Shown here: positions 24,858 through 45,382 of the stretch, in pieces
Numbering within the stretch: the stretch's first letter is position 1
Layout of the letters: the number at the start of each line of letters is the position of its first letter
DNA from: Candidatus Schekmanbacteria bacterium RIFCSPLOWO2_02_FULL_38_14
GTDB lineage: Bacteria > Schekmanbacteria > GWA2-38-11
Direction of reading: 5' to 3'
Assembly: GCA_001790855.1 (NCBI GenBank)
Contig: MGDH01000009.1
Span: 1-51,793, forward strand
DNA: 51,793 bases
The notes under the pieces: model-generated
The model's input: only the letters and a program-made list of their open reading frames with translations
The model's database searches: none
What the model was told of the DNA's origin: nothing
Program-made: the position numbers and the translations under genes

Positions 24858-24898
24858 AATTTTTCGTTCAGCGTTCAGCGGCAAAAAACCTGATTGCC

Positions 24899-25876: not shown

Positions 25877-26602
25877 TTACTTCTTCAGCTTATCAAATAC
25901 GACCTTTGCAGTCCCTTTTTCTGTTACAGTTACTTCAGCAATCTGTGTGCCGAGTTTCTCATGCCAAGCCTTTAGCTGGTATTTTCCTGCAGGAATATCC
26001 TTAATTTCAAATATCCCGTTGTCATTTGTTACTGCATAGTAAGGATTTTCAGTTACAACTATATATGCGCTCATCCATGTATGCCCGGCATCGCACTTTA
26101 TATTCATAATTCCAGGCTTTTTCACTTTTTTCTTTATCTTCTGGTCTTTCATTGGAAGCGCAAGGTTAAATGCTGTTTCAGTCTGGTTTAAGTACCCGTG
26201 GGTATTGTGAAGAATCGGGTCGCTGTTAATTATGTTTATTGAACTTCCTGCTACCATTGCCTGAACATGCGGGATATACTGGCAGCTCTGATTATTAATT
26301 GATGCATCCTCTTTTGAAATCTTTTTCCCTTTTTCAATTTTTTCAATTAATACAACTGCATTCTTCACACCGCCGCTTTTTGAAACAATCAGTTCCTCAG
26401 ATGGCTTCTGGCTTCCGCACACATTGTTGTCCTTTGTTACAGGAAGTGAAGCAGTATCGCCTTTGCCTGCAAACTTAACCTCGCCTGCAATTGTTCCGCC
26501 GTCTTTTACATCAGTTTCCTGGTAGGAATAGGAAACTGAAATTCCTAAAAATAATAGAGTTGTTACTATGCTAATGATGCTAAAAATTTTTACTTTGTTC
26601 AT
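25877..26602 (-). CDS. Exported cupredoxin-like protein with carboxypeptidase-regulatory-like end
   Basis: Residues 1-26 are a signal peptide (hydrophobic core, cleavage near SYSYQ). A beta-rich region follows with INSDPILHNTHGYL and NIKCDAGHTWMSAYIVV, presenting His, Cys, His and Met in the order of a type I copper site (C-x3-H-x2-M at the second part). The final 60 residues, NDNGIFEIKDIPAGKYQLKAWHEKLG, form a small beta-sandwich like the carboxypeptidase regulatory domain. It is probably a periplasmic electron carrier, last in the respiratory operon, with AAGGAGGAG before ATG. Similar proteins occur beside cytochrome genes. Copper binding is not proven. Confidence 0.75.
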   Translation of the reverse strand: MNKVKIFSIISIVTTLLFLGISVSYSYQETDVKDGGTIAGEVKFAGKGDTASLPVTKDNNVCGSQKPSEELIVSKSGGVKNAVVLIEKIEKGKKISKEDASINNQSCQYIPHVQAMVAGSSINIINSDPILHNTHGYLNQTETAFNLALPMKDQKIKKKVKKPGIMNIKCDAGHTWMSAYIVVTENPYYAVTNDNGIFEIKDIPAGKYQLKAWHEKLGTQIAEVTVTEKGTAKVVFDKLKK

Positions 26603-26794: not shown

Positions 26795-28384
26795 CTACTC
26801 AATCTTCAAAGTGTACCACGGCGTAACAGCCTTCTGTCCGTTTCTGTCTCCCTGCGCTCCGTTCCACACAGCAAATCCAACAGGAACTTCCTTCCCGGCT
26901 TTAAATTTTGCATCATATTTATATTTTGAATCAAGGCTTCTAACAATAACCACCTTCCATTTTCCATTGTCCCATACACCCCTGCCGTCAACATTCTGTT
27001 CGTCAACGCTCCTTGGAGTGAGTGTGCTGAATCCCTCTGAGTTGAGGTTTTCAACCGGTGATTTTCTCTCTGGAAGTGATGCAAAATTACCTGCTCCCCA
27101 TCCTGTGATATATGTTGGATCTTGCTCTACTACCGCGCTAATAGTCCTAACCGCAGGCTTATTTTTATCTTTTGGATGAAGGGCTTTTGAAAGCTGGTAG
27201 TCATCTGCAACCATCCCTGCGTATGTATCATCAATGTCATTGAATTTTTTCTTGTCTATGTCAAGCTGTCTGTCTGCTCTCCAGAACCAGATATTTACAG
27301 TATTTTCTTCCTTTTCTGTATCAAGCGCGCCCATTGTAAAAAGAGGTTTTCTCTTTGGGTCAACAGGAAACTGAATAGCAGCGCCGTCAGTAAAATCCTG
27401 ATGCCTTGTAAACCTTGCTTCAGGTGTTAAGTCTTCCCACTCAAGCAGGAATGCCATCTTTCTCCCGTTATGAACTGCTTTAACTGACACGCTGTCAACA
27501 CTCTCCTGTCTCTGCCACAGGAGCATAAAAGGCACCTTTTCTGCCCTGACATTTTTCCATACCTTGTCAAAAGGGTCAATACTGATTTTGCCTGCAACTT
27601 TTTTAGCCGTTACACTGCCGCCTCCGGGCTGAACTGCTACCTTTGAACCTGCCAAAGACCTCACATACTGGACAAGCGCCCATCGCTCTTCTTCATTTGC
27701 TGAATCCTCATACGAAGGCATCGGAGTTCCGTCAAGTCCTGAGATAAATCTTAAGTAAATATCAGAATTATTTCCACCACCCTTATAGATTCCTCTTGTA
27801 AAATCATTTGGCGGAGCTGGATAGCCAAGCTCATCCTTTGTTGTCAGGGATGAGGGTCCGTCGCCCTTGCCTTGCTCGCCATGACATTCAAAGCATTTTA
27901 GCTTTGCATATACTTCTTTGCCCTTTGCGACCAAATCTTTGGATGGAGCAGGTTCTTTGGAAACCTTGATTATGCTCTCCGGAGCCTCTGTAATGTTTGC
28001 AATCTTTTTTATGTAATACACAAGCCCCCATCTCTCATTTTCAGTCAGAGCCTTGAAGCTTGGCATTGCTGAACCGGGAAGCCCATTTGTTAAAGTCTTG
28101 AAAATATTTTCATCTGTTGGTGGCTCTCCTGTTGAAGTTGAGCGAATCTTGAATATCCCTTTTACAAGATTGCGCGGTTTGGGAAAAAGAAGATATGCTG
28201 CTGTGCCGTCGCCCTCACCCTTTTCGCCGTGACACACAACACACTCCCTTTTAAATGTATCCTCCCCCTTGCTCACAATCTCTGGTGTCTGTTTGGGCTG
28301 AGCTGCCTGCGCAGTCCAGCTCAACGCCGCAATAAAAACTGTTAAACCGACTACGGCACTGAGTAAAAACTTTTTAATTCTCAT
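26795..28384 (-). CDS. NXR/DMSO reductase type II gamma-like heme b subunit fused to two cytochrome c domains
   Basis: A signal peptide (1-28, ending AQA) exports it. Two monoheme class I cytochrome c domains follow: CVVCH (48-52) with distal Met in GSAMPSF (about 107), and CFECH (164-168) with GTPMPSY. From about residue 260 to the end comes a domain like the heme b gamma subunit of ethylbenzene dehydrogenase, NXR and selenate/chlorate reductases (FMLLWQRQESVDSVSVKAVHNGRKMAFLLEWED...). Known gamma subunits are about 215-320 residues; here one polypeptide of 529 holds the gamma domain and two hemes. It probably relays electrons between NxrB and periplasmic carriers. AAGGAGG precedes ATG. It follows the chaperone gene on the same strand. 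Confidence 0.85.
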   Translation of the reverse strand: MRIKKFLLSAVVGLTVFIAALSWTAQAAQPKQTPEIVSKGEDTFKRECVVCHGEKGEGDGTAAYLLFPKPRNLVKGIFKIRSTSTGEPPTDENIFKTLTNGLPGSAMPSFKALTENERWGLVYYIKKIANITEAPESIIKVSKEPAPSKDLVAKGKEVYAKLKCFECHGEQGKGDGPSSLTTKDELGYPAPPNDFTRGIYKGGGNNSDIYLRFISGLDGTPMPSYEDSANEEERWALVQYVRSLAGSKVAVQPGGGSVTAKKVAGKISIDPFDKVWKNVRAEKVPFMLLWQRQESVDSVSVKAVHNGRKMAFLLEWEDLTPEARFTRHQDFTDGAAIQFPVDPKRKPLFTMGALDTEKEENTVNIWFWRADRQLDIDKKKFNDIDDTYAGMVADDYQLSKALHPKDKNKPAVRTISAVVEQDPTYITGWGAGNFASLPERKSPVENLNSEGFSTLTPRSVDEQNVDGRGVWDNGKWKVVIVRSLDSKYKYDAKFKAGKEVPVGFAVWNGAQGDRNGQKAVTPWYTLKIE

Positions 28385-28503: not shown

Positions 28504-29265
28504 CTAAGCTTCTACCTCTCCTATGTCCCCTCCGCCGCAAAGAGCGCAGGCATCATCATCAAAATCCTTGAAAGAACCCAATTTCTTAATCTCCTCTGGT
28601 TCAATTTTAAAGAAATCAATCTCAGAGCGCATAAAATTACCAGTCAACTCAGCAAGTAATTTGTAAAACCCTTTTCCTGCCTTTTCTCCTAAAAGTTTTG
28701 TAAACAGAGGAACCCATATGCCTAAATGGTCTTTCAAAAATTTTTTCTGCGCATCTTTGCAGATATCGCTTTCCTCTGCTCTGCTGTTCTCCCTCGCATA
28801 GTTTTCCTTAAAAATAAGAAAGTACATAAACTCTAACTCAATGCTTATATGGTCATGTCTTTCCTTTGCCTTGTCAGAAGCTTCAAGTCCAAATGCCTTA
28901 TAAAACCCTGCTATATCACCAAGCCCCTGACTTTTCTGGAACACATGGGACTTGCCGTATTCTGTTTCATAGGGCGGGCATTCATTTGAAACCGAATGGC
29001 CAAATATCCTTGAAAACTCTGACTGCATATTTTCAAGAGAAATGTTTCTAACAGAACAAGCCAAAGAATTTATAAGGTCTGAAACCTCTCTCTCATGAAT
29101 ATTGGCAAGAGAAGCAAAGCAGGAATTTAATTCCTCTGCAAAGCCCTCTTCTCTCAGAGATGAATACAAATCCTCCTCAGGATATATAAATGCTCGGGAA
29201 AGAAACTGGTATGCATTCATCCTGGCAGGATTTACTTCTTTTTCTTTTAAGTCTGTTTGTTCCAT
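28504..29265 (-). CDS. TorD/NarJ-type molybdoenzyme maturation chaperone
   Basis: All-helical cytoplasmic chaperone for Tat-exported molybdoenzymes. Recognised by NAYQFLSRAFIYPEEDLY near the N-terminus, the family motif CPPYETEYG (near residue 113), and DHISIELEFMYFLIFKE followed by KKFLKDHLGIWVPLFTKLL. Its 253 residues are typical. It lies between nxrB and the gamma-subunit gene, the same place as NarJ/NxrD-like genes. It probably holds the NxrA-like precursor until cofactor insertion. AAGAGG precedes the ATG. Confidence 0.88.
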   Translation of the reverse strand: MEQTDLKEKEVNPARMNAYQFLSRAFIYPEEDLYSSLREEGFAEELNSCFASLANIHEREVSDLINSLACSVRNISLENMQSEFSRIFGHSVSNECPPYETEYGKSHVFQKSQGLGDIAGFYKAFGLEASDKAKERHDHISIELEFMYFLIFKENYARENSRAEESDICKDAQKKFLKDHLGIWVPLFTKLLGEKAGKGFYKLLAELTGNFMRSEIDFFKIEPEEIKKLGSFKDFDDDACALCGGGDIGEVEA

Positions 29266-29385: not shown

Positions 29386-30657
29386 TCAGATTGAGTTCGC
29401 ATGTTTATCAGGCCTTTCATAGAAAGGTTCCTCAACAGTTGTTCTTATAACTTCCTCTCCGTTCTTTCCAAACCCGATTACTGTATCATTGAACATTTCC
29501 CACTTCTTACCGTTGATGGTTGTCTCATAGACCTTTTTGCCTTCTTCAATCTTGTAGCTATAAATAATCTTCTGTGTTGTCCTAAAAAGTTGAAGTACTG
29601 CAAGAAGCTCTCTTGATGGTGCTGAATATTTTTCAATTGCCTCATCAACACCAGGACCAAACATCTGCCTTAAATAGTCTCTTGGCACCCATCTTGGCGG
29701 AATATAATATCCGTTTGGCTGTGTTCCAAATGTAGGACAAAGAGGAAGCGCAACCTTTTCAACCTTAATAAGGTAATATAAAGGATGGTTTTTGTCTTCT
29801 TTCCAACTTCCATCCGGGTTGAGCTTTACAAGTCCCTGCATCCTTATCTTGCCGACACATGCTGCCATGCACCTTGTTTCTGTAGGAACATTTCCTGTTA
29901 ACGGGTCTTTGCCTTCAATCCTTGGATAGCAGGCAATGCACTTTTCAGAAACCCTTGATGAAGCTCTGAACATTGGTTTCTTGTAAGGACACCCCTCAAC
30001 GCATTTCCTGTATCCTCTGCATCTTGACTGGTCAATGAGAACTATCCCGTCCTCAGGACGCTTGTAAATTGCCTTTCTCGGACACGCAGCAACACATGCA
30101 GGATGCGAACAGTGGTTGCACAGCCTCTGAAGGTAGAAAAACCATGTTCCATGCTCAGGAAGTTTTACTCCTTCACTGTGCATTTTATTAGGCTCGCCCT
30201 TTATCCCCTTTGCAGTATCTTCATAAATGTTTGGAGCACTCCATTCCTCGTCATTTGGAATATAACCAACTGCCCTCTGTCCCCCTTCAGGACCATATTT
30301 CTTAAGCGCTGCCTCAAACACAGTCATTCCGCCAAATTCGCCGTAAGGTTTGCCTGCTCCGTCTTTTTTGGATGAATCCCAAACCTGTCCTCCGGGATTT
30401 ATCTGCTCAATAATCTGCATCAATTTCATGTCCCAGAATTGCGGGTATCCGCCGTATGGCTTTGACTCAACATTGTTCCACCACATAAATTCCTGTCCCT
30501 TTGAAAATGTCCATGTTGACTTACATGCCATTGTGCAGGTCTGGCAGGCAATGCAGCGATTAATGTTAAACACAAAGGCAAACTGCTCTGCGGGATATCC
30601 GGCTTCATAAGGATATTCCATATCCCTTCCTAATTGCCAGTTATATACTTGCGCCAT
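29386..30657 (-). CDS. nxrB: NxrB/NarH-type iron-sulfur subunit
   Basis: Electron-transfer subunit with four clusters. Cysteine groups: C35-x2-C38-x2-C41-x3-C45; C180-x2-C183-x4-C188-x3-C192; C213-x5-C219-x3-C223; and C240, C243, C263, C267. In NarH the third group includes Trp in CRGWRMC, making a 3Fe-4S cluster; here it is CRGYRKC. The N-terminal stretch FVFNINRCIACQTCTMACK and WWNNVESKPYGGYP resemble NxrB of Nitrospira and anammox bacteria more than NarH. No signal peptide, so it is probably carried through Tat with the alpha subunit. Length 423 is typical. AAGGAG before ATG. The 75-base gap to nxrA holds a palindrome. Confidence 0.93.
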   Translation of the reverse strand: MAQVYNWQLGRDMEYPYEAGYPAEQFAFVFNINRCIACQTCTMACKSTWTFSKGQEFMWWNNVESKPYGGYPQFWDMKLMQIIEQINPGGQVWDSSKKDGAGKPYGEFGGMTVFEAALKKYGPEGGQRAVGYIPNDEEWSAPNIYEDTAKGIKGEPNKMHSEGVKLPEHGTWFFYLQRLCNHCSHPACVAACPRKAIYKRPEDGIVLIDQSRCRGYRKCVEGCPYKKPMFRASSRVSEKCIACYPRIEGKDPLTGNVPTETRCMAACVGKIRMQGLVKLNPDGSWKEDKNHPLYYLIKVEKVALPLCPTFGTQPNGYYIPPRWVPRDYLRQMFGPGVDEAIEKYSAPSRELLAVLQLFRTTQKIIYSYKIEEGKKVYETTINGKKWEMFNDTVIGFGKNGEEVIRTTVEEPFYERPDKHANSI

Positions 30658-30732: not shown

Positions 30733-33700
30733 TTAAGATTTTTTTACCTTAACGATTTCACCATTTAGATAGCTTTTCATATACTCGCTTTCATTACCTG
30801 GTGTATATCCTGTTGTTGCAGGTCTCCAGATTCCCTTGCCGCCAAGACCGCCATCTTCAGCCTTGCTTATCTTGACAAGAGTCTCTTTTGGCACTGTGTT
30901 GACTGCGTGGTTATCTGCCTCGCCGCCAAACACAAAACCCATAAAGGTTTTTGTCTTATGGAATAGAGAATCTGTCTGGTGCATTGGCATATGCCAGTTT
31001 CTTGTAAGCGCCTGATGCGAGCCGTAGCGGAAAGTTGACTGATAGCCGGTATCTGCTGAAAGCGCTCTTCCATCTTCCCTTGTCTCGTGCGCTTTGACAG
31101 TTTTCTCGGTTGCTATAAAAGCTGAATGTTTCATCATTATCACATTGTATGGGTAAGCAGGATTGTACTTAACCCTTATCATAAGCCTTGAAACCTTGTA
31201 GAACGGGTCATCCGGCTTCCAGTCTCTGTAAGGCCTGTCCATTGGATTAGCATCAATATATGCATAGTCTCCGTCATTTAAGCCAAGGTCTCTTGCCGCT
31301 TCTGGATTAATATGCATCTGACGCTCGCCAACTCCGGGTGTCCTTTTATCCATTCTGTAGGGGTCGCCAAAGTTTGAATCCCAGATTAAGTTCCAGTCAG
31401 TAACAGCCCATGAAGAGTGAACTGTATGACGTGTCTTTGGAGTCATGCAGTAAAACTTGTAGCCTTTTTCCCAGAGTGGGTTCTTTGATTTTTTTACCTC
31501 ACTCCAAGGCATTTTAATATTTCTTACAGTTCTCTCATCCCAGTGCATTGCATCAGGGGAAAGTCCATAGTCATCAGGCCTGATATATGGGTTTGAACTG
31601 ACAATTACATTTGGAAGATATGGAGTCCCTTCTGGTCCTTCGCGGTGAACTACAAAATTCTCACCGTATTCAATTGCCTCTGGTATATCACAGTAGGCAT
31701 GCAACCTTCCAGTATCAGTATAGAATGGAATGCTGTCAGTTACCTGTTCATAGAACGGATTGCGGGGATATGTGCGGAAAAGCATCAGGGCTACGCCCGG
31801 CTCTCCGTATTTTCCTGACATGATGTCTTCAAGCTTGTAGCCTGCTGTTGTTGTTGAAGAGTCAAGCAGGCGCTGGATATAGACATCGCGGTTTCCTTCA
31901 AGAACAAACTTCCAGTAATCTGCAAAACGTTTATCATTAAGAATCTCTCCAAGCCTCTTGGCTATCGTTGCAAGTATGTCTACATCATCTTTGGTATCAT
32001 AAAGGGGTTTAATACCACCCTTCCATATCTGCAGGAACGGGTTTGAGCATGAAGCTGTTATTTCATTCCCCTCAAATTCCATCCATGAGTTTGCAGGCAG
32101 AGCAAAGTCTGCATATTCAATTGATGCTGTCATCTCAATATCCTGCGAAATTATCAACTCAACTTTTGGGTCAACATTTTTAAGCATGTCATACACATGC
32201 TTTGCGTTGTTGATAAGGTTGACGTTTGTAAAATACATCACCTTTGTAGGAGTTGGCATGTGAGTTTGCCCGGTAAAAACCTTTCTGCCGTATTTTGGTG
32301 TATTAACAATCAGCGGCTTATCGCCGTGGTTCCAGTATGCAGGCTCCTCGTCCTTTGTATATGCATGTGCGTGTATATCTTTTCCCTTTGCATTCGGGTC
32401 TAAGTTAACTTCAAACGGGTCTTCTGCAACCCATCCCTTGAAACCCGGTCCACTCCATGCAGAACCCTGAAACAATGCTGATTTATAATTACCAGCCCAT
32501 GTATGCGAACCTGAGCCCTTTACTCCAATGTTGCCTGTTAGCATTAATGGAAGGTATGTTGCGCGGTTGTGGAGTGTTGCATGGAACCAGTGGTTGATTC
32601 CCTCACCATAATGGATTGCAACAGGTTTGATTGTTGCAATGTCTTTTGCAAGCTGTTCAATAAGATTTTTTGGAGCGCGTGTGATTTCGGCAACTGTGTC
32701 AATATCATAATCTTTGAGATGTATTTTGTACATTTCCCAAAGTGTCATAACCTCAACCTTTTCGCCGTTGGCAAGCTTTATAGTGCCTTTGTATCCCAAG
32801 TCAGGGTCAATCCCCTTTGCAGTCATTTTATCACCAATCTCATCACGTGTAATTGCCTTGAGCTTCTTGGTTTTTGCATCAAAGACAACAAAGTCGCCAA
32901 GCTTTTCATACTGTTCTTTTTTAAGTCCCTGAATTTTGAAGCTTGCGCCATTTGGGTCAATCACTGATTTATAACCCTTGAATACTTCGTGAGCTCTTAA
33001 TCTCTTGAGGTTATCAGTTCTCACAAGAAGAGGAAAATCAGTAAACTTCTTAACAAACGGTTCATCATAGAGGTTGTTGTCCATCAAATACTTGCTTATT
33101 CCAAGAAAGATTGATGTATCAGAAATGCCAGGACGCACTGGTATCCAGTAATCTGCTTTTGTTGCAGGCGGATTATACTCAGGAGCTATAACTACTATTT
33201 TTGCACCTCTTTCCATAGTCTCAATAAACCAGTGGGACTCAGGCATCTTGTTTTCAACCATATTTTTTCCCACCTGAATATGGAGTTTAGAGAAACGGAG
33301 ATCATTGAGGTCTATTTCTGAAGCCTGAAGGCCATGAACATAAGGATGCCCGGGCGCCTGATCACCGTGCCATGTATAGTTTGACCATGCTCTTCCCCCA
33401 AGTGCGTGTTCGTGGTCAACCTTTCTTAAGTTTGCGTCAAGAAGCGCAAGGGTGTTTGAAAGGCGGTACATGCCGTATTTGCCGATTACGCCTAAAAGCC
33501 CCATTCCGCCGCGCAGTTTAAATGTCCTTGTCCCAGCACCCCTCATTTCCTGAACCATCTCAGGCTCATAGCCCTGAGCCAAAAGTTTTTTTGCTCCTTC
33601 CTCGCCGTTGTAACGTTCTGCAATATTGATAAACCCACGCGCAATATAATCTACAGCCTTGTCCCATGAAAGTCTTACAAATTCATCAGTCCCGCGTGAG

Positions 33701-34185
33701 TCAAATTTATACTTCTTTTTGTTCTCCTCTGTAAGTTCAGGAAAACCCTCATCAGCCCATTGCTTCCATCCCTTTCTCACAATAGGATATTTCAATCTGT
33801 AAGGACCATAGACCCTTCTGTGGAAAGTGAACCCCTTCAAACACCCTCTTGGACCCCAGTTAGGGGTTGCCTTGTTGCCATAGAGATCTGCATAATCTTT
33901 TACATCATAGTTCTGCTCAGACCTCATCACCACGCCGTTTCTCACAAAAGCCTTCAGACGACAGGCATGCGTGTCGTTTGGCGAGCATACATATGTGAAA
34001 GTGCTGTCATAACGATACTGGTCCCTGTAGATTTTTTCCCAGTCCCTTGGCGGATAGGACTGGAGAGGATTGTCAATCGCCACAACAGGCTGCAGCATTT
34101 CAAGCGCAAGACCATCCTTGGCAAATACTGCAACAGTTCCTGCCGCCGCTGTGGTTTTTAAAAACCTTCTCCTGCTAAATCCCAT
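30733..34185 (-). CDS. nxrA: Periplasmic NxrA-type molybdoenzyme alpha subunit (nitrite oxidoreductase/nitrate reductase-like)
   Basis: Type II DMSO reductase family catalytic subunit with Mo-bis-MGD, oxidising nitrite or reducing nitrate. A Tat signal, SRRRFLK (4-10), sends it to the periplasm, as in Nitrospira and anammox NXR and unlike cytoplasmic NarG. The N-terminal cluster site reads C67-x3-D71-x3-C75 with Cys115 later, an Asp where NarG has Cys. The presumed Mo ligand is Asp275 in YTWHGDQAPGHP. The 1150 residues equal NXR length; selenate, chlorate and perchlorate reductases are about 910-930. WEKIYRDQYRYDSTFTYVC strongly resembles NxrA. AAGGAGG precedes ATG. Whether it runs as nitrate reductase or nitrite oxidase cannot be told. 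Confidence 0.92.
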   Translation of the reverse strand: MGFSRRRFLKTTAAAGTVAVFAKDGLALEMLQPVVAIDNPLQSYPPRDWEKIYRDQYRYDSTFTYVCSPNDTHACRLKAFVRNGVVMRSEQNYDVKDYADLYGNKATPNWGPRGCLKGFTFHRRVYGPYRLKYPIVRKGWKQWADEGFPELTEENKKKYKFDSRGTDEFVRLSWDKAVDYIARGFINIAERYNGEEGAKKLLAQGYEPEMVQEMRGAGTRTFKLRGGMGLLGVIGKYGMYRLSNTLALLDANLRKVDHEHALGGRAWSNYTWHGDQAPGHPYVHGLQASEIDLNDLRFSKLHIQVGKNMVENKMPESHWFIETMERGAKIVVIAPEYNPPATKADYWIPVRPGISDTSIFLGISKYLMDNNLYDEPFVKKFTDFPLLVRTDNLKRLRAHEVFKGYKSVIDPNGASFKIQGLKKEQYEKLGDFVVFDAKTKKLKAITRDEIGDKMTAKGIDPDLGYKGTIKLANGEKVEVMTLWEMYKIHLKDYDIDTVAEITRAPKNLIEQLAKDIATIKPVAIHYGEGINHWFHATLHNRATYLPLMLTGNIGVKGSGSHTWAGNYKSALFQGSAWSGPGFKGWVAEDPFEVNLDPNAKGKDIHAHAYTKDEEPAYWNHGDKPLIVNTPKYGRKVFTGQTHMPTPTKVMYFTNVNLINNAKHVYDMLKNVDPKVELIISQDIEMTASIEYADFALPANSWMEFEGNEITASCSNPFLQIWKGGIKPLYDTKDDVDILATIAKRLGEILNDKRFADYWKFVLEGNRDVYIQRLLDSSTTTAGYKLEDIMSGKYGEPGVALMLFRTYPRNPFYEQVTDSIPFYTDTGRLHAYCDIPEAIEYGENFVVHREGPEGTPYLPNVIVSSNPYIRPDDYGLSPDAMHWDERTVRNIKMPWSEVKKSKNPLWEKGYKFYCMTPKTRHTVHSSWAVTDWNLIWDSNFGDPYRMDKRTPGVGERQMHINPEAARDLGLNDGDYAYIDANPMDRPYRDWKPDDPFYKVSRLMIRVKYNPAYPYNVIMMKHSAFIATEKTVKAHETREDGRALSADTGYQSTFRYGSHQALTRNWHMPMHQTDSLFHKTKTFMGFVFGGEADNHAVNTVPKETLVKISKAEDGGLGGKGIWRPATTGYTPGNESEYMKSYLNGEIVKVKKS

Positions 34186-34206: not shown

Positions 34207-34728
34207 CTATAATTCCTTTAATAAAGAAACTCTTTTGGGGAAAACCTTTATAAAAGCTTTTCCGTTTAACATAAAACAAACATTCTCGCAAATTCCACAG
34301 CCAACACACTTCTCATGGACAACAACAGGCTTGAAATCGTCAAGAACTATAGCCTCATCCATGAAAGGGCACTTAATATAGCACATTCTGCAATCCATTC
34401 CTGACCATGCAGAACATCTTTCCTTATCTATTTCTGCCATACCTATTTTGTTTTTTTCATCTGTCTTCACGAGGTTCAAAGCACCGTTTTCGCAAGCACT
34501 TCTGCATGGAAATTCTTTGCATAAATAGCATGGAGTGTTTTCAGGCATAATGCAGGGGTATTTATTTACAAGCTTTATGCTTTGATGAGGACAGGCTTGC
34601 ACGCATTTACCGCACCCCTTGCATATTTTCTGAAAAACCCCCTCTTCGACTGCGCCCGGAGGCCTGATACAGTTTTCATCTTTTGTTACTGTCCTCGTTG
34701 CCAATCTAAAAAATTCTCTTCTATTCAT
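34207..34728 (-). CDS. 4Fe-4S ferredoxin-type protein (NapF/NapG-like), four clusters
   Basis: Sixteen or more cysteines in ferredoxin patterns: CKGCGKCVQACP, CYLCKEFPCRSAC, CSAWSGMDCRMCYIKCP and CVGCGICENVC. The middle two are irregular, as in NapF/NapG/MauM. It opens MNRREFFRLATR, a degenerate twin-arginine-like start (NRREFFR), so export is possible but uncertain. 173 residues, 22 bases upstream of nxrA, with good ribosome site (AAAAGGGG). It could take part in electron transfer to, or in maturation of, the molybdoenzyme, as NapF does in the nitrate reductase system. Confidence 0.82.
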   Translation of the reverse strand: MNRREFFRLATRTVTKDENCIRPPGAVEEGVFQKICKGCGKCVQACPHQSIKLVNKYPCIMPENTPCYLCKEFPCRSACENGALNLVKTDEKNKIGMAEIDKERCSAWSGMDCRMCYIKCPFMDEAIVLDDFKPVVVHEKCVGCGICENVCFMLNGKAFIKVFPKRVSLLKEL

Positions 34729-34774: not shown

Positions 34775-35722
34775 CTATGACACCCCCAGCCATTCTCTTC
34801 TCAGCTTATAGACCTCTAAACATCTCCCGCATAAACCCTTTTCAGGACTCCACCACGGATAATCCTTTTTTATTGCTGTTAAAACTAACTCTTTTTCTTC
34901 AAACAGGTTTTTGCTCCAGTCAAATGTAGGAAATTTACAAATAGGACATGGAGAACCCGGAAGCGCTATCATATCCTCGCTTAATTCTTTCTCATCAATT
35001 GAAGAATATTTTTTAATTAACACCTTAAAATCCCTTGCCATAGCAAGAATCTCTTCATGGGTCAATTTCTCAGCATTCCATAGGGCTTCAAAAATTTCAT
35101 CAAGATGAGAAGATGGTATTGACCTGTAAAGTTCTCTGAACTCTGCAAATGTTTCTTCCCTCAAGACAACTGTTTCTTTCCTGCTTCTTGCAATTCTTCC
35201 GTCTATAAATATGTCCCATATAATTTTATAGCGGCTTCTGATTGCATTCTCTTGCGCAGGCGAAACAGCTCCTGTCTTATTATATTTTCTGTATTTGAAA
35301 TTGCCATCAAGCATATCTGAAATATGTTTTAATTCATGCCTTATGAATGCTTCAAGTTTTGGCTGGATAAAAAACTGCTCAGGATGGATTCTCAACCCTA
35401 TTTTTCCTGAATCATTGCTGATTGATGCCTCTTCCTGAGAAACTATAAGGGCTTTAAAAACAGCTATAATTTTTATTTTATTGTCAAACTCTTTAAATTC
35501 AGAGAGGACATCAAGAATTGGCTTGCCAAATCCAAACTTCAGAAAAAATTCTTCATGGAATTTTTCAAAAAGTTTTTCCCTTGAATCCTCACGCCTTTCA
35601 TAGATTTTCCTGTGCCTATCATAATAATCCTTAACATCACTATCTTTCCCAATAGCCTCTCTCCTCTTTATTTCCCTGAATACTACATCCTCAACCAACG
35701 TTGTATCGTATAGAACTTCCAT
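34775..35722 (-). CDS. Unrecognised HExxH protein with C-terminal CxxC-CxxC zinc ribbon
   Basis: I cannot name this 315-residue protein. It carries HELKH (129-133), matching the HExxH zinc-metalloprotease signature, followed by a helix with WDIFIDGRIARS (about 169-180) that may provide a third ligand. At the C-terminus are C259-x2-C262 and C298-x2-C301, fit for a zinc ribbon or Fe-S site. No signal peptide or membrane segment is seen, so it is cytoplasmic. The gene lies between two ferredoxin genes in the respiratory operon, 6 bases after one and 46 before the next. It may process or metallate a subunit, or degrade one. Function is open. Confidence 0.75.
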   Translation of the reverse strand: MEVLYDTTLVEDVVFREIKRREAIGKDSDVKDYYDRHRKIYERREDSREKLFEKFHEEFFLKFGFGKPILDVLSEFKEFDNKIKIIAVFKALIVSQEEASISNDSGKIGLRIHPEQFFIQPKLEAFIRHELKHISDMLDGNFKYRKYNKTGAVSPAQENAIRSRYKIIWDIFIDGRIARSRKETVVLREETFAEFRELYRSIPSSHLDEIFEALWNAEKLTHEEILAMARDFKVLIKKYSSIDEKELSEDMIALPGSPCPICKFPTFDWSKNLFEEKELVLTAIKKDYPWWSPEKGLCGRCLEVYKLRREWLGVS

Positions 35723-35728
35723 AATCGC

Positions 35729-36145
35729 CTACACTCTCTTTCCCATTGAAATTGCTTCCTTTATGCAGATTGACTCGCACAGCCTGCATGCAACGCACTT
35801 CTTTGCTGTAACTGTTGCAATGCCAAAGACATCCCCGGCATTTTCACGTTTGAGCAATTCAACAGATTCAAAAGGACACATATCAGCGCAGAACCCGCAT
35901 CCGGAGCAAAGGGTTGTATCAACCGTTGCAACCGGTATTTCATTTGGTTTAAGCCTTTTCCTTGGCAGCCCATTGCCGTTTGTTATTGCCTCGCTCGGAC
36001 ATACCATGCCGCAGGCACCACATTCAATGCAGAGTCTCTCATCTATTATATGTTTTATCTTCCTCTCGCCAGAAATTGCGCTTACAGGACATCTCCTTGT
36101 GCAGACAGTGCAACCTATACATTTCTCTGTTATTCTAAAAGCCAT
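35729..36145 (-). CDS. Polyferredoxin with four 4Fe-4S motifs
   Basis: Four regular CxxCxxCxxxC motifs: CIGCTVCTRRCP, CIECGACGMVCP, CSGCGFCADMCP, and CVACRLCESIC. No signal peptide, so cytoplasmic. I start it at ATG 36145 (MAFRITEKCIGC); the longer frame to 36190 begins in the CATTGCGAG repeat and adds residues not expected in ferredoxins. No clear ribosome site precedes either start, so expression may rely on read-through. It lies 6 bases before the HExxH gene, so the two are coupled. It could link a cytoplasmic donor to the maturation or respiratory modules. Confidence 0.82.
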   Translation of the reverse strand: MAFRITEKCIGCTVCTRRCPVSAISGERKIKHIIDERLCIECGACGMVCPSEAITNGNGLPRKRLKPNEIPVATVDTTLCSGCGFCADMCPFESVELLKRENAGDVFGIATVTAKKCVACRLCESICIKEAISMGKRV

Positions 36146-36184
36146 AATATATAGAGGTATTTCTGAAAATATTTCTTTTCTTCC

Positions 36185-36300
36185 TGTCATTGCGAGCTAT
36201 GAGCTTGCCGAATGGCGAAGCAATCTCATTAAAAGCTGACAGCTGATAGCTTACAGCTAAAATTGAGATTGCTTCGTCGCTAACGCTCCTCGCAATGACA
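36185..36300. repeat. Long TGTCATTGCGAG inverted repeat element
   Basis: A 116-bp element: outer arms TGTCATTGCGAG / CTCGCAATGACA, inner arms GCGAAGCAATCTCA / TGAGATTGCTTCG, and a centre with AGCTGACAGCTGATAGC palindromes. It fills the gap between the octaheme and polyferredoxin genes. A partial related copy is at 42247-42276. Confidence 0.9.
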
Positions 36301-36329: not shown

Positions 36330-39017
36330 TTATTGCTTCAAACTGAACAGATAATTTCTCAAAAGCTCCATCTTCTTTTCAGGTTCCGGCAGAAGTTCTG
36401 ACTTCTCGCCATCCTCATCAATATCATAGAAAAAATTTGGCATCCTTGTCCCAGGCATGAGCGGCTGAGGATTGGTAAGCCAGTCTATAATCCATTTGGG
36501 TTTTAATCTTCCGTTCGCCAGAGAGAGGTCAGGAGCTAATTCTGCAGCAGAAATCCCTGCTCCGCCTTTTCCAAACTGATGGCATTTAAGGCATTGCAGT
36601 GTATCGATAAGAGATTTCATTTCAGCCTTTTCCTGCGCAGTAAATTCTTTTTCCTCAAGATAGTGATAGAATACTTCTTCTCTGGACATGGACTGGAAAT
36701 ATCTTACAATGCTGTTTGCCTGTGCCTCTCTAAAATTGAATGTTGGCATTCTTACAGAAAGCCAAGGCCTTATTGGAACAGGTTCATGAATAAACCTGAA
36801 TAGCCACTCAGATTGCACTTTTGTCCCTTCTCCGACAATCCTCGGAGGCGAATAGCTTTTTACGTTTATCTCATCATTACTATATTTTTCTCTCAGAGCA
36901 ACCTGAATATTTGCACCATCCCACTTTTCCTCAACCTCGTGGCAACCAATACAGTTATACTTTTTTACAATCTTCCTTCCTTTCTGAATGTCTGTATAAT
37001 TTGCAGAAACCTCTCTTGTGAACTCTTTTGGGATCTTTTCATCCCTGAAGCCCTTAAGAAGAACTGCAAGAGCGTGAGCTTCTTCATCATTCAGTTTAAA
37101 ATCAGGCATTCTCTGCACAACAACTTCAGTTTCAAATATCCTTGGGGTCTTTATTTTTGTAAGGGCATAGCCAAGCCAGCTTCTTTCAACCTGTTTTGCA
37201 TAACCAAAAGCAAGCTCATACAGCTCTTTGTTGCCAAAATTGCTCAACTCAGCGCCCACCCTTCCAAGCTTTTCTGTACCGGGTATCTCATGGCATCCAT
37301 AACAGCCATAATCTGATATTATTTTTAATCCTTTTTCTGCTTCTGTTTTGTTGGCTATTTTCTGTTCTATGTCTTCTATCTTTTTGAAATTTGAATCCCT
37401 CAGGCTGTAAAGGTAGGCAACTATTGCCTCTGCCTCATTCGCAGTAAGCCTCAGATTTGGCATAAGGGTTTTTGAATTGTACCGCTTTGGATTCAAAATC
37501 CAGTTTAATATAAATTCAGGTGTTGTTTTGTTTCCAATATTAGTAAGGATTGGAGCTATATCTCTTGAGTTATTCTGGTAAATTTCTGTGATGCCAACTG
37601 AATGGCAACCATTACATCCTATATCCCTTACCAGCTCTTTGCCCTTAGCTATCAGGGCGCTGTTTCCAAGAACACCATCTCTTAATTTGTAAACCCTCCA
37701 TGTTTCGTCTTTTGGAAGATTCAAAAGATATGCAGCAACTGATGCGGTTTCCTGGTCAGATAAAAGGAAATTGGGCATTCTTGTCTTTGCATGATACCAT
37801 TTGGGATTTTTTACCCACTGGAAAATCCAAGAAGGATTAACTTTTGAAGCAATGTTCTTTAAGGATGGACCAATTTTATTAACATCTTCATATCCTTTTA
37901 CAAGATGACAGTTGACGCATCCTATTTTTTCTCTGAAAAGATTTATGCCCTCTGACAGAACAGGCGCCCCTTGAATATCCTCTTCAAGGGCATGGCATCT
38001 TCGGCATGAGGATTGTATAAAATCTCCTGCAAGCATAGGTTTTTCCCAGTGAGAAATCGGATGCCAATCATATTTTTTCTTCCATTCTGTTTCCTGTTTT
38101 TTATCTTTAGGTGCATGCCCTGCATCATAAAAAGCAAGACCGCTTTCCTGTCCGTCATGACAGGAAGTGCAGCCGAATTTTTCAACAGGATGTTTTTCAA
38201 TAAAAATTTCATAATTAACATGAGTCCTGTAAGGCTCTTTAAAACCTTCAAAACCTTTTCTGTCGGTTCCTAAGTGACAGGAGAGACACCTGTCAGCTTT
38301 AAGAATTGGTTCATCAAAATTATTTCTTGAAAAATCCTGAATTACAATTTGATTAATTTCAGGAATTTTTTTGGAGAGAATATCAAGCTTTTTTTCAATC
38401 TTGGCAATATTCTCTTTATATTTTTCTAACTTTTCCTCAAACTCAGGAATTTCCCCTTTGAAGCTGTCAACTTTTTTCCTGATTTCATCTCTTTCAGCAG
38501 TTGCTTTTTTTACTACTGGTCCCCATTTCTCTGTCTCAGCAAAAAGTTTTTCCCATTTTGCCTTCTTTGCCTGATAATTGCCCCCTTTATCAAAAGCCTG
38601 CTGATACAGGAAGTAAGCCTCTTCTGTTAAACTTTTTGCAAACTGAAGTCCCTGAGAAATCTCAAGAAGTTTTATTTCTTTTTTATCAAGTTCCTTTATT
38701 GCATTTTTGTATTCATTGCTTTTTTCCTTCTTATTAAACTCCTCTCTTAGCTTCCTGAGTTTTCCATCAATCTCTTTGAATTCATCTGCAGGGATTGCAT
38801 TCTTAGCCTCTTCAAGCTCCTTCTCAAGCTTTGCAGTCTCAAGCCTGAAAAACTCTTTCTGATAATCCTTCCATGGTCTTCTTGTAACTGTCTCATTATA
38901 AACTGACCAGATAAGCGAAATACTTGTTATAAGAGCCAGAGTAAAAAAATGTATTTTGTAAGATTTTTTCTCTTCAGATGGGCTGCCACCATTTAAACCG
39001 GGTTCACTTGCTTTCAT
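36330..39017 (-). CDS. Membrane-anchored octaheme cytochrome c with long periplasmic coiled coil
   Basis: Eight CxxCH sites, starting at residues 244, 283, 338, 367, 468, 572, 689 and 809. Residues about 23-40 are a membrane helix and about 50-225 are charged coiled coil. The first three hemes form a close cluster. The last five lie in tandem class I-like cytochrome c domains, each with a later RMPNF-type methionine motif (about 414, 519, 636, 757, and 861), so they arose by internal duplication. Length is 895. It replaces the usual cytochrome c1/f in a Rieske-cytochrome b operon and probably takes electrons from the Rieske centre. AAAAGGAG precedes ATG, 42 bases from the cytochrome b gene. 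Confidence 0.9.
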   Translation of the reverse strand: MKASEPGLNGGSPSEEKKSYKIHFFTLALITSISLIWSVYNETVTRRPWKDYQKEFFRLETAKLEKELEEAKNAIPADEFKEIDGKLRKLREEFNKKEKSNEYKNAIKELDKKEIKLLEISQGLQFAKSLTEEAYFLYQQAFDKGGNYQAKKAKWEKLFAETEKWGPVVKKATAERDEIRKKVDSFKGEIPEFEEKLEKYKENIAKIEKKLDILSKKIPEINQIVIQDFSRNNFDEPILKADRCLSCHLGTDRKGFEGFKEPYRTHVNYEIFIEKHPVEKFGCTSCHDGQESGLAFYDAGHAPKDKKQETEWKKKYDWHPISHWEKPMLAGDFIQSSCRRCHALEEDIQGAPVLSEGINLFREKIGCVNCHLVKGYEDVNKIGPSLKNIASKVNPSWIFQWVKNPKWYHAKTRMPNFLLSDQETASVAAYLLNLPKDETWRVYKLRDGVLGNSALIAKGKELVRDIGCNGCHSVGITEIYQNNSRDIAPILTNIGNKTTPEFILNWILNPKRYNSKTLMPNLRLTANEAEAIVAYLYSLRDSNFKKIEDIEQKIANKTEAEKGLKIISDYGCYGCHEIPGTEKLGRVGAELSNFGNKELYELAFGYAKQVERSWLGYALTKIKTPRIFETEVVVQRMPDFKLNDEEAHALAVLLKGFRDEKIPKEFTREVSANYTDIQKGRKIVKKYNCIGCHEVEEKWDGANIQVALREKYSNDEINVKSYSPPRIVGEGTKVQSEWLFRFIHEPVPIRPWLSVRMPTFNFREAQANSIVRYFQSMSREEVFYHYLEEKEFTAQEKAEMKSLIDTLQCLKCHQFGKGGAGISAAELAPDLSLANGRLKPKWIIDWLTNPQPLMPGTRMPNFFYDIDEDGEKSELLPEPEKKMELLRNYLFSLKQ

Positions 39018-40631: not shown

Positions 40632-41168
40632 TTAAATTTTTAAAAGTGCGTCAGATTTTTCCCATTCACCTTTTTCAAAAAGAAATTTGACACTTTTATC
40701 TATTACAAGTTCTCCCTCATCAGAAAGAGAAATCTTTAATCTTTCAAGCGCCCTTGGCGCAGGACCCTCAAAATTCACGCCATCTCTGAAAAAACCACTT
40801 CCATGGCAGGGACATTTAAATTTATTTTCAGCCTCAAGCCAACGTGGAGTGCAACCAAGGTGAGTACAACGGGCAAGCAGCGTATATAACCCTTCCTCTG
40901 TTCTTATTATCCATACCGCCTGTGACTCTTTATATTTTTCACTAACTGTTCCAACTGGATACTCATCTGGAAATCCTGCCTTAAAAGTTGTCTTTGGCTC
41001 AAACAGTACCCTTGGAAACATAAATCTTGTAAAGGCTATTGTTGAGCCAAGTAACATAGAAATAATCATTGACCACCCTGCCAAAGAAAAAAAATCTCTC
41101 CTTGACCATAAATGGTCTATTTCACCCTGTTTTACTATTACTGCTTCTCCAGTTTTTTGCTCTGTCAC
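40632..41168 (-). CDS. Rieske iron-sulfur protein
   Basis: Carries the 2Fe-2S cluster that accepts an electron from quinol. Ligand boxes are CTHLGC (C101, H103, C106) and CPCHGS (C119, C121, H122); the two remaining Cys form the usual disulphide. The N-terminus shows SRRDFF (22-27), a twin-arginine signal, and a membrane helix GWSMIISMLLGSTIAFTRF. Length 178. Start GTG at 41168 shares one base with the TAG of the upstream rrf2 gene, and AAGGAG lies 7-8 bases upstream, so translation is coupled to the regulator gene. It is the first structural gene of the operon. Confidence 0.95.
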   Translation of the reverse strand: MTEQKTGEAVIVKQGEIDHLWSRRDFFSLAGWSMIISMLLGSTIAFTRFMFPRVLFEPKTTFKAGFPDEYPVGTVSEKYKESQAVWIIRTEEGLYTLLARCTHLGCTPRWLEAENKFKCPCHGSGFFRDGVNFEGPAPRALERLKISLSDEGELVIDKSVKFLFEKGEWEKSDALLKI

Positions 41169-41611
41169 TATAAGTTCTCCTTAAAATTATCAGTGTTTGA
41201 GCTGTTTTCAAGATTGTCTCTTAATTGTTCCAATGTTGTTGACTCCAGAATCATGTTCATTGCCTTTACTGCCTCACGCCATTTAGCACTTACAGTGCAT
41301 TTTCCGTTCCTTGGACAGTCTCCCCTTCCAAGGAGGCATTCATCAGCAAAAAACTTTCCTTCAAAGCTTTCAATAAGCTCTTTTAAGGTAATTTTTTCAG
41401 GAGGTTTTGCAAGAGCAAAACCCTTGTGCGCACCACGATATGATTTAAGAATTCCAATCTTTGTATATGTCTGAAATATTTTTGAAAGGTAGCTTTTGGA
41501 GATATTTTGCGCCTCTGCAACCTCATCAAGAAGAGTTATTTTTCCCTTAGGCTGCATAGCTAAATATAGGACACCATGAATTCCGTATTCACTTGCTTTC
41601 ATTAAACGCAT
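41168..41611 (-). CDS. Rrf2-family Fe-S transcriptional regulator
   Basis: Rrf2/IscR/NsrR-type winged-helix repressor. It opens MRLMKASEYGIHGVLYLA, with the HTH at about 25-55 (ITLLDEVAEAQNISKSYLSKIFQTYTKIGILKSYRG), and has three cysteines CLLGRGDCPRNGKC spaced as in the 2Fe-2S IscR group, so it may sense Fe-S status, NO or oxygen. I start at ATG 41611, which gives the canonical Rrf2 N-terminus; an in-frame TTG at 41632 adds seven residues. Ends overlapping the Rieske start. As first gene, it probably autoregulates the operon. Confidence 0.9.
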   Translation of the reverse strand: MRLMKASEYGIHGVLYLAMQPKGKITLLDEVAEAQNISKSYLSKIFQTYTKIGILKSYRGAHKGFALAKPPEKITLKELIESFEGKFFADECLLGRGDCPRNGKCTVSAKWREAVKAMNMILESTTLEQLRDNLENSSNTDNFKENL

Positions 41612-41659
41612 ATAGCTTCCATTTGGAGTCAAAAGGTCTAATGGAGTTAATTTATTTTC

Positions 41660-42379: not shown

Positions 42380-45300
42380 GTGGTTTTTTTTCTTTTTTCT
42401 CTCTCTCTAATAATTCCGCTTATTCTTGCAATCTATGTCATAATCATCAACCTCAAGGAACTTGAGAGCAAGCTATTCATAGGTTATATGGCGGTAATAG
42501 TAGTTGGTAGCCTTCTAACTCTCTTACCTCCCATAGCCCACAGCATTGATTTTGCACGCTGGGGAAATGCTGTAAGGCTTATCTTTGTTTTCTATCTCAA
42601 TGGCATATTCCTTTTCTTTTTAACAGCCGCTATTCTTTTCAAGGAATTTTTCAGGAAAAAGGCTTTAGTCAAATTTCTGATTAGTGCCCCAGTCATATTT
42701 TCAACAGTAATTCTCTCAGATTATTTTTTCTCAACAGGAATCCTTTATTCAGGTGTAAAATTTTCACAAGGGGTCTATTTCACAGAATTTGGCAGATTTA
42801 GGTTTTTAAATGACATATACATCCTTTCCTTTGCCCTGCTGACATTTTATATCCTAATCAGGGCATATCCTGTATCAGACCCCATTAAAAAAAAGGCGAT
42901 TATAATTCTTACTTCGCTGATACTGCTAAGTTCCATTCTTTCTTCTCTAAGGCCCTTTCTCAAGCAATATCCCCTTATAACCTTAATGCTTTCAACCTTT
43001 GGTCCCCTTCCGGTCCCTGTTGCCTTTGCCTATCTGATTAGCAAGTACAAACTCTTTTCTCCTATTGAAAGCGCTCTTAATTTAGCCATAGAAACTTTGA
43101 TGGATGGAATCATTGTGCTCAACCAGAACAGGGAAATTATAAAAATGAATCCAATGGCTGAAAAGATACTCGATATAAAGTTTGCCGATATAAAAGAAAG
43201 CTCTTCATCAAACTTTCAGACTATTCTGGAAGAAAAATTCGCAGGTGAAGAGCTATGCGATATATTCAAATACATTTTCCAAAATGAAAAAATAGAAATC
43301 CGCGATCGTGAAACCGAGCTTAAAAAAAGCAGAGAAGCCTTCCTTGAAATCAATGTGTCTCAGATTAAAGAAAAAGGAACAAAGCTCTTGGGTACTCTTG
43401 TAAAAATCAGGGACATAACTGAAAAGAAAAAATCAGAAATTGCGCTGAATTACGAGAAAGAAATGTCTGCAAATATTCTGGAAAATGTCGGACTGCTAGT
43501 GCTTGCAACAAGCAGAGAGGCTGAAATAATCTTTTGCAATAAAAAACTGGAGGAAATCACAGGTTATACAAAAGAAGAAATTCAGAAATATTCTTTTGCA
43601 ATGCTTGTTTTTACAGAACCAAAATACAGAAGAAAAGCCGTTGAAACCCTGTACAAGCCATATATGGGAGAAATAACAAAGGATGAAGAGTTTATTATAA
43701 CAAGAAAAAATGGTGAAAAGAGAACTATTTCCTTTACCTCAACGCCCATAAATGACTTGAATGGAAATTTCCTTGGAGTCTTAATCAGCGGGAATGACAT
43801 AACTGAAAAAAGAAGGGCTGAGGAATCATTAAAACTGCTCGCCAACCTCACCTACCTTTCTGTTGATGGAATAATAAGCACTGATGAAAACGGTATTATT
43901 ATCTCATGGAATAGGGGGGCTGAAAAAATCTACGGCTACACCTATGATGAAATTTTTGGCAAATCGATCCGCGTCCTTGACACAGAAGATGTAAGGGATA
44001 CGGGAAGGAATGAAGAGTTTTTAAAAAACCTGAGGGAAAAAGGCTTTGTAACAAACATAGAAAGAATTCAGGTTGCAAAAGACGCAAGATTTATCAGTGT
44101 TCAGATTACTGCATTCGTAGTAAGGGATGAAATCGAGGAAAAAAATTACTATGCGTCAATCGTAAGGGATGTTACCCAGACAAGAATGATGGAAGAGGAG
44201 CTCAACCAGTCATCAAAGCTTGCTGCAATAGGAACCCTTGCAGCAGGCGTTGCCCACGAATTCAATAACCTTCTTGCAGGAATCCTTGGGTATGCACAAC
44301 TCGGAAAGTCCTCCACCGAACCAGAACAGATGAAAAAGGCTCTGGAGATAATTTTTAAAACCTCTGAAAAGGCAAAGAACATTTCCCAAAACCTCCTGAG
44401 TTTTGCCAGAAAGCAGGAACAAAAGAAAAAACTTAATGACATAAAACATATCATTGAAAATACCTTGGGTTTTATGGAAAGAGAGTTTGATAAAGCAGGA
44501 ATCAAGGTTGTGCGCGACTATATCCATATCCCGCTAACAGTATGCGATTTCGGACAGATTTCTCAGGTTTTTTTAAATTTGATGACTAATGCAAAAGATG
44601 CTATGACTCCATGTGGTGGGACACTCACGATTAAAACTAGACAGGTTGCTAATGATATAGAAATAAGCTTTTCTGACACAGGCTGTGGCATTCCAAAAGA
44701 ATTAATTGACAAGATATTTGAACCTTTTATGACAACAAAGGGCCCAAGAAGCGGCAGCAAGACTCCCGGAATAGGACTTGGACTTTCTGTTTCCTATGGG
44801 ATTATAAAAAGCCACAACGGAACAATAAAAGTTGAGAGCAAGGTTTGTGAAGGTTCAACTTTCATAATAAAACTTCCAGTTGTTTCTATGACTAATGAAA
44901 CATTTCCAACTAAGTTTCAAAAAACTGATTTAATTGAATCAACAGACCTTCCTGTTGTGCTTAATACATTGGTTGTAGACGATGAAGAAGTTGTTAGGTT
45001 CCTTCTCAGGGATCTACTCGAACAAGAAGGACATAAAGTAGTTATATGCTCTGATGGCAAAACAGCCCTTGATATGTTTAAAAATGAAAAGTTCAACATA
45101 GTCATTACCGACATCACAATGCCCGGAATGAATGGAATAGAACTCTTAAAAGAGATAAAAAAGATTGACCGGAATATTCCGGTTGTCCTTATTACAGGAA
45201 AAATAATGGGGGATAAAAAAGATATGATAAATATTGACTCAATTGAAGAAGCTTCAGGCTTTATAGAAAAACCCTTCAATATCTCAGATATAAAAAAGGT

Positions 45301-45382
45301 CCTTATTGACGCACAGAGAAAAAATCTTAAAGCATCAGAGAAATTTTTGCATAAAAAGAATCAGGAGCCACCAGTTCAATAA
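42380..45382 (+). CDS. Hybrid sensor histidine kinase: membrane sensor, PAS domains, kinase, receiver
   Basis: Residues about 1-230 hold seven or so membrane helices. Three PAS regions follow (about 235-350, 360-475, 485-600). The dimerisation domain has VAHEFNNLLAGILGYAQLG with His626, and the ATPase domain has NLMTNAKDAM, DTGCGIPKE and GIGLGLSVSYGI. The C-terminal receiver has VVDDEE, phospho-acceptor Asp911 in ITDITMPGMNG, and the EKPF lysine. It resembles NtrB-like kinases with attached receiver. The start is doubtful: GTG 42380 lies only two bases after the ribosome-like GGGGAAAGG, within a run of eight T. Its location beside the respiratory operon suggests a role in its regulation. A paralogue remnant is at 23780. 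Confidence 0.9.
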   Translation: MVFFLFSLSLIIPLILAIYVIIINLKELESKLFIGYMAVIVVGSLLTLLPPIAHSIDFARWGNAVRLIFVFYLNGIFLFFLTAAILFKEFFRKKALVKFLISAPVIFSTVILSDYFFSTGILYSGVKFSQGVYFTEFGRFRFLNDIYILSFALLTFYILIRAYPVSDPIKKKAIIILTSLILLSSILSSLRPFLKQYPLITLMLSTFGPLPVPVAFAYLISKYKLFSPIESALNLAIETLMDGIIVLNQNREIIKMNPMAEKILDIKFADIKESSSSNFQTILEEKFAGEELCDIFKYIFQNEKIEIRDRETELKKSREAFLEINVSQIKEKGTKLLGTLVKIRDITEKKKSEIALNYEKEMSANILENVGLLVLATSREAEIIFCNKKLEEITGYTKEEIQKYSFAMLVFTEPKYRRKAVETLYKPYMGEITKDEEFIITRKNGEKRTISFTSTPINDLNGNFLGVLISGNDITEKRRAEESLKLLANLTYLSVDGIISTDENGIIISWNRGAEKIYGYTYDEIFGKSIRVLDTEDVRDTGRNEEFLKNLREKGFVTNIERIQVAKDARFISVQITAFVVRDEIEEKNYYASIVRDVTQTRMMEEELNQSSKLAAIGTLAAGVAHEFNNLLAGILGYAQLGKSSTEPEQMKKALEIIFKTSEKAKNISQNLLSFARKQEQKKKLNDIKHIIENTLGFMEREFDKAGIKVVRDYIHIPLTVCDFGQISQVFLNLMTNAKDAMTPCGGTLTIKTRQVANDIEISFSDTGCGIPKELIDKIFEPFMTTKGPRSGSKTPGIGLGLSVSYGIIKSHNGTIKVESKVCEGSTFIIKLPVVSMTNETFPTKFQKTDLIESTDLPVVLNTLVVDDEEVVRFLLRDLLEQEGHKVVICSDGKTALDMFKNEKFNIVITDITMPGMNGIELLKEIKKIDRNIPVVLITGKIMGDKKDMINIDSIEEASGFIEKPFNISDIKKVLIDAQRKNLKASEKFLHKKNQEPPVQ

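Follow-up and report, generated by a model that had tools for sequence, protein, structure and literature searches.

In the window (the whole 51,793-nucleotide stretch analysed, from contig MGDH01000009.1 of Candidatus Schekmanbacteria bacterium RIFCSPLOWO2_02_FULL_38_14), genes for a Rieske protein, a cytochrome b and an octaheme c-type cytochrome run directly into nxrAB, and homologues of this octaheme cytochrome co-occur with nitrite oxidoreductase (NXR) across unrelated bacteria; both observations are new here. It is this genomic tie to NXR, rated above the architecture of the protein, that makes the octaheme unusual. Its sequence and gene context indicate that the octaheme is very probably the membrane-anchored periplasmic c-type component of a Rieske/cytochrome b complex of b6f-like kind, and the chances that NXR is its direct partner are about even.

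The gene cluster and its setting

The octaheme of 895 amino acids is encoded by a minus-strand open reading frame from 39017 to 36330, a frame that holds many stops on the forward strand. It stands in a co-directional minus-strand cluster in the order Rrf2-family regulator, Rieske protein, cytochrome b, octaheme, ferredoxin, a hypothetical protein, a NapG-like ferredoxin, nxrA, nxrB, chaperone, gamma subunit and cupredoxin-like protein (Table 1). In another genome of the same family (G001), the order is identical up to nxrA, where the contig stops. The window NxrA matches the Kuenenia NXR (PDB 7b04), its closest solved structure, from end to end at 1917 bits. The hypothetical protein of 315 residues, which reached the cut-off of no family in Pfam or NCBIfam, has a counterpart at the same place in G001 (65% identity).

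Table 1. Coordinates of the octaheme gene, the segments of its product and the neighbouring genes in the window
Feature	Position	Strand	Basis
Rrf2-family regulator, head of cluster	41168..41632	-	domain search
Rieske [2Fe-2S] protein (CTHLGC...CPCHGS)	40632..41168	-	Pfam, NCBIfam, alignment
Cytochrome b, b6-like and subunit IV-like parts fused, 520 aa	39060..40622	-	Pfam, NCBIfam, alignment
Octaheme c-type cytochrome, 895 aa (subject of the earlier note)	36330..39017	-	ORF list, domain search, motif scan
N-terminal membrane helix, residues 20-43	38889..38960	-	hydrophobic stretch; helix in AlphaFold2 model
WKDYQKEF motif, residues 49-56, directly past membrane helix	38850..38873	-	sequence comparison
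Stalk, residues 49-215, charged and helical, with five helices predicted	38373..38873	-	AlphaFold2 and composition
Triheme head, residues 240-345, CxxCH at 244, 283, 338	37983..38300	-	motif scan, domain search, alignment
H266, conserved 40/40, putative distal heme ligand	38220..38222	-	alignment of 40 homologues
H276, conserved 39/40, putative distal heme ligand	38190..38192	-	alignment of 40 homologues
H301, conserved 40/40, putative distal heme ligand	38115..38117	-	alignment of 40 homologues
Class I cytochrome c domain 1 (C367, M414)	37677..37967	-	repeat profiles, Pfam, AlphaFold2 and Foldseek
Class I cytochrome c domain 2 (C468, M519)	37374..37664	-	repeat profiles, Pfam
Class I cytochrome c domain 3 (C572, M637)	37017..37352	-	repeat profiles, Pfam
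Class I cytochrome c domain 4 (C689, M757)	36666..37001	-	repeat profiles, Pfam
Class I cytochrome c domain 5 (C809, M859)	36351..36641	-	repeat profiles, Pfam
Ferredoxin, four Fer4 stretches with several [4Fe-4S] motifs, next gene after the octaheme	35729..36190	-	Pfam
315-aa protein, HExxH (RHELKH), zinc-ribbon-like C-terminal cysteines	34775..35722	-	ORF list, domain search
NapG/MauM-like ferredoxin, RREFF twin-arginine motif	34207..34728	-	NCBIfam
NxrA, nitrite oxidoreductase alpha subunit; Tat signal, molybdopterin	30733..34185	-	full-length match to PDB 7b04
NxrB, iron-sulfur beta subunit	29386..30657	-	NCBIfam
Type II DMSO reductase chaperone	28504..29265	-	Pfam, NCBIfam
Gamma (NxrC-like) subunit: two cytochrome c domains and heme-b EB_dh domain	26795..28384	-	Pfam, NCBIfam
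Secreted cupredoxin-like protein (LHNTH...KCDAGHTWM) with carboxypeptidase-regulatory-like C-terminus	25877..26602	-	sequence comparison

The cytochrome b has a 14-residue HxnH spacing, and the Cys for heme c_n is replaced by Gly (TWGMGG), unlike in the second octaheme Rieske/b complex of the same genome, where that Cys is kept. It is a single chain in the window and in G001 and is split at nearly all other octaheme loci. The genome holds three Rieske/b loci in all: that of the window, the second octaheme locus (contig C21) and a locus on contig C18 (L046, 4873-13394). The last encodes a FAD/NAD(P) oxidoreductase, a Rieske protein, cytochrome b, a pentaheme protein and a ten-CxxCH protein, a make-up that resembles the anammox complexes. 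On the two sides of the window cluster lie genes for a 1000-residue PAS/histidine kinase/receiver hybrid (42380-45382, plus strand, divergent from the Rieske-NXR cluster) and for a protein with a Mrr-type restriction endonuclease domain (24351-24884, minus strand).

Association with nitrite oxidoreductase and a proposed route of electrons

An octaheme match (E≤1e-60) was found in 32 genomes of 21 families among a sample of 386 genomes. Wherever the flanking sequence was long enough, in loci spanning several phyla and about 20 families (the named ones being from Omnitrophota, Sumerlaeota and Neomarinimicrobiota), the gene adjoins or lies near Rieske and b6/subunit IV genes; a few loci (near contig ends, or with the cytochrome b elsewhere in the genome) show no Rieske gene or a partial cytochrome b. 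This gene context supports the suggestion of the earlier note that the protein may be an arm of a bc complex.

The octaheme was present in 17 of the 22 genomes bearing the NXR clade of the window (defined by 59% identity or more), compared with 1.8 expected (Fisher P value=7e-17; 386 genomes). Counted by family, it accompanied this clade in 11 of 16 (P value=2e-10), a test that assumes 259 families in total (the highest family label seen); the Fisher tests allow for kinship among genomes by this family count alone. No excess was seen with cytoplasmic NarG in the same 386 genomes (4 of 25, versus 2.1 expected), and none that was clear with a more distant NXR-like clade of about 43% identity. 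Two simpler origins of the link were rejected. One was that genomes with NXR merely have Rieske/b complexes; the link persists within the 119 genomes that carry a related cytochrome b (P value=1e-8). The other was that the link reflects a single octaheme clade; genomes with NXR are dispersed across the octaheme tree (12 changes, with 143 of 500 shuffles as low), thus one clade does not explain it. About half of the octaheme-bearing genomes sampled are without this NXR clade, thus the octaheme is not an NXR-only part, and in the other NXR-bearing genomes the octaheme and NXR loci are on different contigs or tens of kilobases apart.

What follows the octaheme gene varies among lineages. At one Omnitrophota and one Neomarinimicrobiota locus, the next genes are those for a cupredoxin and COX1; in two further genomes (G042 and G319), the genes that come next encode cupredoxins, a bd-like oxidase and a diheme protein of EB_dh type. 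Another type II molybdoenzyme has its operon inside or beside an octaheme Rieske/b operon in three genomes of a different family (f26), and in one of the three a nonaheme Rieske/b operon (L049) leads straight into a second NXR-like operon. From this variety, the octaheme looks like a common relay with exchangeable acceptors.

In the proposed route, the octaheme would stand in for cytochrome f/c1. Quinol would be oxidized at cytochrome b, and one electron would pass via the Rieske cluster to the triheme head and on to the five class I domains, which would serve as electron relay and as docking surface for periplasmic partners. The partner would vary by lineage, being here most likely the co-encoded NxrABC and elsewhere either a cupredoxin together with a heme-copper oxidase or a different type II molybdoenzyme. 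With NxrABC, flow in the forward sense would run from quinol to nitrate and, in the other sense, from nitrite to quinone, by reverse flow driven by the proton-motive force. What the data show is the anatomy of the sequence, the conservation of the ligands, the class I fold of one repeat, the gene context and the co-occurrence with NXR; contact of the octaheme with the Rieske/b subunits, the order and potentials of its hemes, the NXR partner and any direction of flow are inferred. The genome encodes NrfA and a CydA-like protein; a full heme-copper oxidase was not found in it, the one match of that kind being a fragment-like COX1-like protein of 136 residues. Such a content gives no direction of flow, and Kuenenia NXR catalyses both directions in vitro (PMC8387239); in the window system, electrons may pass from quinol to nitrate or from nitrite to quinone.

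Alternatively, the octaheme may feed a shared pool of periplasmic acceptors (cupredoxin, small cytochromes, NrfA, bd-like oxidase), with the adjacency to nxrAB reflecting co-regulation only. We hold this to be a serious possibility, if short of a probable one: homologues of the window cupredoxin-like protein are encoded near the octaheme gene at 12 other loci, many octaheme genomes are without NXR, and NrfA and the CydA-like protein are at hand in the window genome, yet the co-occurrence with NXR is strong against the NarG control, and nxrA lies within the same co-directional cluster in both members of the family (the window and G001). A coupled NXR-octaheme-Rieske/cytochrome b system is put forward tentatively. 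The octaheme would wire periplasmic NXR to the quinone pool; a proton-motive Q cycle would push electrons from nitrite uphill to quinone (or pass those from quinol to nitrate), and the neighbouring multi-cluster ferredoxin could perhaps act as second acceptor. For nitrite oxidizers, anammox bacteria and anaerobes with NXR, the literature consulted so far offers genome-based proposals on how NXR and quinones exchange electrons. A single cluster of NXR, b6f-like complex and octaheme, together with co-occurrence in some eleven family-level lineages that is not shared by cytoplasmic NarG, offers a concrete candidate path and a testable prediction.

A third reading is an electron bifurcation like that proposed for the Kuenenia complexes (PMC12954380): of the two quinol electrons, one would reach a high-potential acceptor via the octaheme, and the other would reduce a cytoplasmic iron-sulfur acceptor, in the window the multi-[4Fe-4S] ferredoxin encoded next to the octaheme gene, making low-potential reductant. 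This ferredoxin follows the octaheme in both the window and G001, and relatives of it are encoded close to further octaheme loci; a FAD/NAD(P) oxidoreductase is encoded at the C18 Rieske/b locus as well as at two other octaheme loci (L092 and L102). However, a domain search found no such oxidoreductase around the window octaheme gene, the window cytochrome b is devoid of the heme c_n Cys, and the ferredoxin may serve maturation of NXR instead; bifurcation is considered unlikely.

Triheme head, class I repeats and stalk

The eight CxxCH motifs of the octaheme are in a 3+5 arrangement at residues 244, 283, 338, 367, 468, 572, 689 and 809, exactly where the earlier note had placed them; 20,000 shuffles of the residues yielded a mean of 0.005 motifs and a maximum of one. 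The methionine motif that was claimed to come 45-70 residues past each of the last five was found at 47-68 residues (M414, M519, M637, M757 and M859). The proposal of five class I cytochrome c domains in series after the triheme group was likewise borne out, as the repeats both align with each other and match Cytochrom_C: a profile of each repeat position detected all four other positions in 15 of 15 octahemes tested, and 25 of 30 repeat copies, taken singly, matched Pfam Cytochrom_C. Pairwise identity among the repeats of the window protein is 15-37%. Furthermore, a profile of the 30 copies retrieved class I cytochromes c of solved structure, the mitochondrial one among them, with E down to 2e-13. 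An AlphaFold2 model of repeat 1, built with the 30 copies, reached a pLDDT of 77, and Foldseek matched it to SoxX, SorU and mitochondrial-type cytochromes c (probability 1.00, TM about 0.6, E about 0.002). All five repeats thereby combine CxxCH and a distal Met in what appears to be a cytochrome c fold, the fold being modelled from repeat 1. As a whole, the octaheme gave three significant Cytochrom_C stretches in Pfam, with weak class III/c554-type matches for the triheme head, and in the PDB weak matches to single cytochrome c domains and nothing else; its AlphaFold2 model (six sequences) has a mean pLDDT of 44, with the heme region mostly below 50, too low for heme distances or an unbroken heme path to be read from it.

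Repeats at the same position score a median of 110-136 bits across phyla, versus 12-71 bits for those at different positions, which argues that the five-domain plan is old and predates the spread of the octaheme family. In the wider family, proteins with five, seven, nine and ten hemes also adjoin Rieske/cytochrome b genes, which indicates that the number of class I domains is variable. For example, relatives with nine and ten CxxCH, of apparent 3+6 and 3+7 plan, are encoded beside Rieske/cytochrome b at L049 (8400-11075) and L047 (7687-10269). The second octaheme of the window genome (L045 on contig C21, 9518-12166) is a paralogue of 37% identity, the last repeat of which has no aligned distal Met.

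Across 40 aligned octaheme homologues of several phyla, all eight CxxCH are kept in every one. Outside these motifs, H266 and H301 are conserved in all 40 and H276 in 39; among the methionines, M414, M519, M637 and M757 are conserved in all 40 and M859 in 38. We infer bis-His coordination for the three hemes of the head and His/Met coordination for the five of the repeats. From this conserved set of ligands, heme types can be predicted for a multiheme family in which the search for solved structures gave no close relative.

The earlier note had also described an N-terminal membrane helix and a charged coiled coil. The helix is at residues 20-43, and the stalk behind it (residues 49-215) consists of 46% charged residues and is helical by AlphaFold2 (pLDDT about 70-88 over most of it), but it is modelled as five helices with breaks rather than one straight coiled coil. 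Several octaheme relatives are without the long stalk, their first heme being at residue 76-99, and a WKxYQxEF-like motif past the membrane helix is common to most octahemes and to several penta- to decaheme relatives. Judging by these comparisons, the stalk is thus best regarded as an insertion that is optional in a family with a common anchor.

These features bear on two further readings. Eight hemes in a row, together with a long charged stalk, could suggest a free-standing nanowire-like or extracellular electron conduit. The nanowire-like role raised in the earlier note found no support, and such a conduit is very unlikely: the octaheme has a membrane anchor and is tied to Rieske/cytochrome b genes, not to outer-membrane or extracellular components, the stalk is dispensable in relatives, no porin or filament gene was recognized within the cluster, and a PDB search gave no match at E≤1 to solved multiheme filaments of the OmcS/OmcE type. 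Also very unlikely is a catalytic multiheme reductase, as are the octahemes of hydroxylamine oxidoreductase (HAO) or tetrathionate reductase (OTR), for although the number of hemes would suit, the conserved candidate sixth ligands (three His and five Met) equal the hemes in nearly all homologues, the domains are of class I, and no match to HAO, OTR or an octaheme nitrite reductase was found in Pfam or NCBIfam.

Comparison with known complexes

The window protein carries eight CxxCH on a single chain, and its gene adjoins those for Rieske and b6/subunit IV-like proteins. It appears to be the octaheme c subunit of a known kind of b6f-like Rieske/cytochrome b complex, the Nitrospina, Kuenenia and Methylomirabilis oxyfera proteins being compared by description only. 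The earlier note knew of no octaheme of this architecture; one of the same genomic setting, again compared by description, had been reported (PMC3578206, PMC12954380), so that this claim is unsupported, while the five repeats do align. In Nitrospina gracilis, an 'atypical octaheme cytochrome c' was described in 2013 as the only c-type subunit of a b6f-like operon of Rieske and split cytochrome b, and Kuenenia and Methylomirabilis, likewise bacteria of the nitrogen cycle, have the same operon structure (PMC3578206). As in the window, the Nitrospina octaheme is described as adjoining the Rieske and b6/subunit IV genes, and the organism has NXR. Its cytochrome b is split, whereas that of the window is one chain and the window locus runs into nxrAB.

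Anammox Rieske/b complexes of Kuenenia with hexa- or octaheme subunits were modelled in 2025 (PMC12954380). The two complexes, Kustd1480-1485 and Kuste4569-4574, are b6f-like with a hexa- or octaheme c subunit, like the window complex, and Kustd1485 has long helices wrapping halfway round the complex, to which the stalk of the window octaheme may correspond (PMC12954380). The Kuenenia complexes carry NAD(P) oxidoreductase subunits, and one has a hydroxylamine-oxidoreductase-like octaheme, whereas the window cluster is without such genes; they are also modelled with heme c_n, the Cys for which is missing from the window cytochrome b. Kuenenia NXR (PDB 7b04) is a relative of the presumed partner, the window NxrA, and is not related to the octaheme.

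Resemblances to the Geobacter Ext (selenite/tellurite) cytochromes ExtP, ExtQ and ExtS (NCBIfam NF040969-71) are all below curated cut-offs: the window cytochrome b resembles ExtP (260 bits, cut-off 290) and ExtQ, and one octaheme repeat resembles ExtS; no Ext gene set was recognized in the window cluster. Finally, cytochrome f and cytochrome c1 hold the place that the octaheme presumably takes, accepting electrons from the Rieske protein and passing them to periplasmic carriers, but do so with one heme in an architecture unrelated to that of the octaheme.
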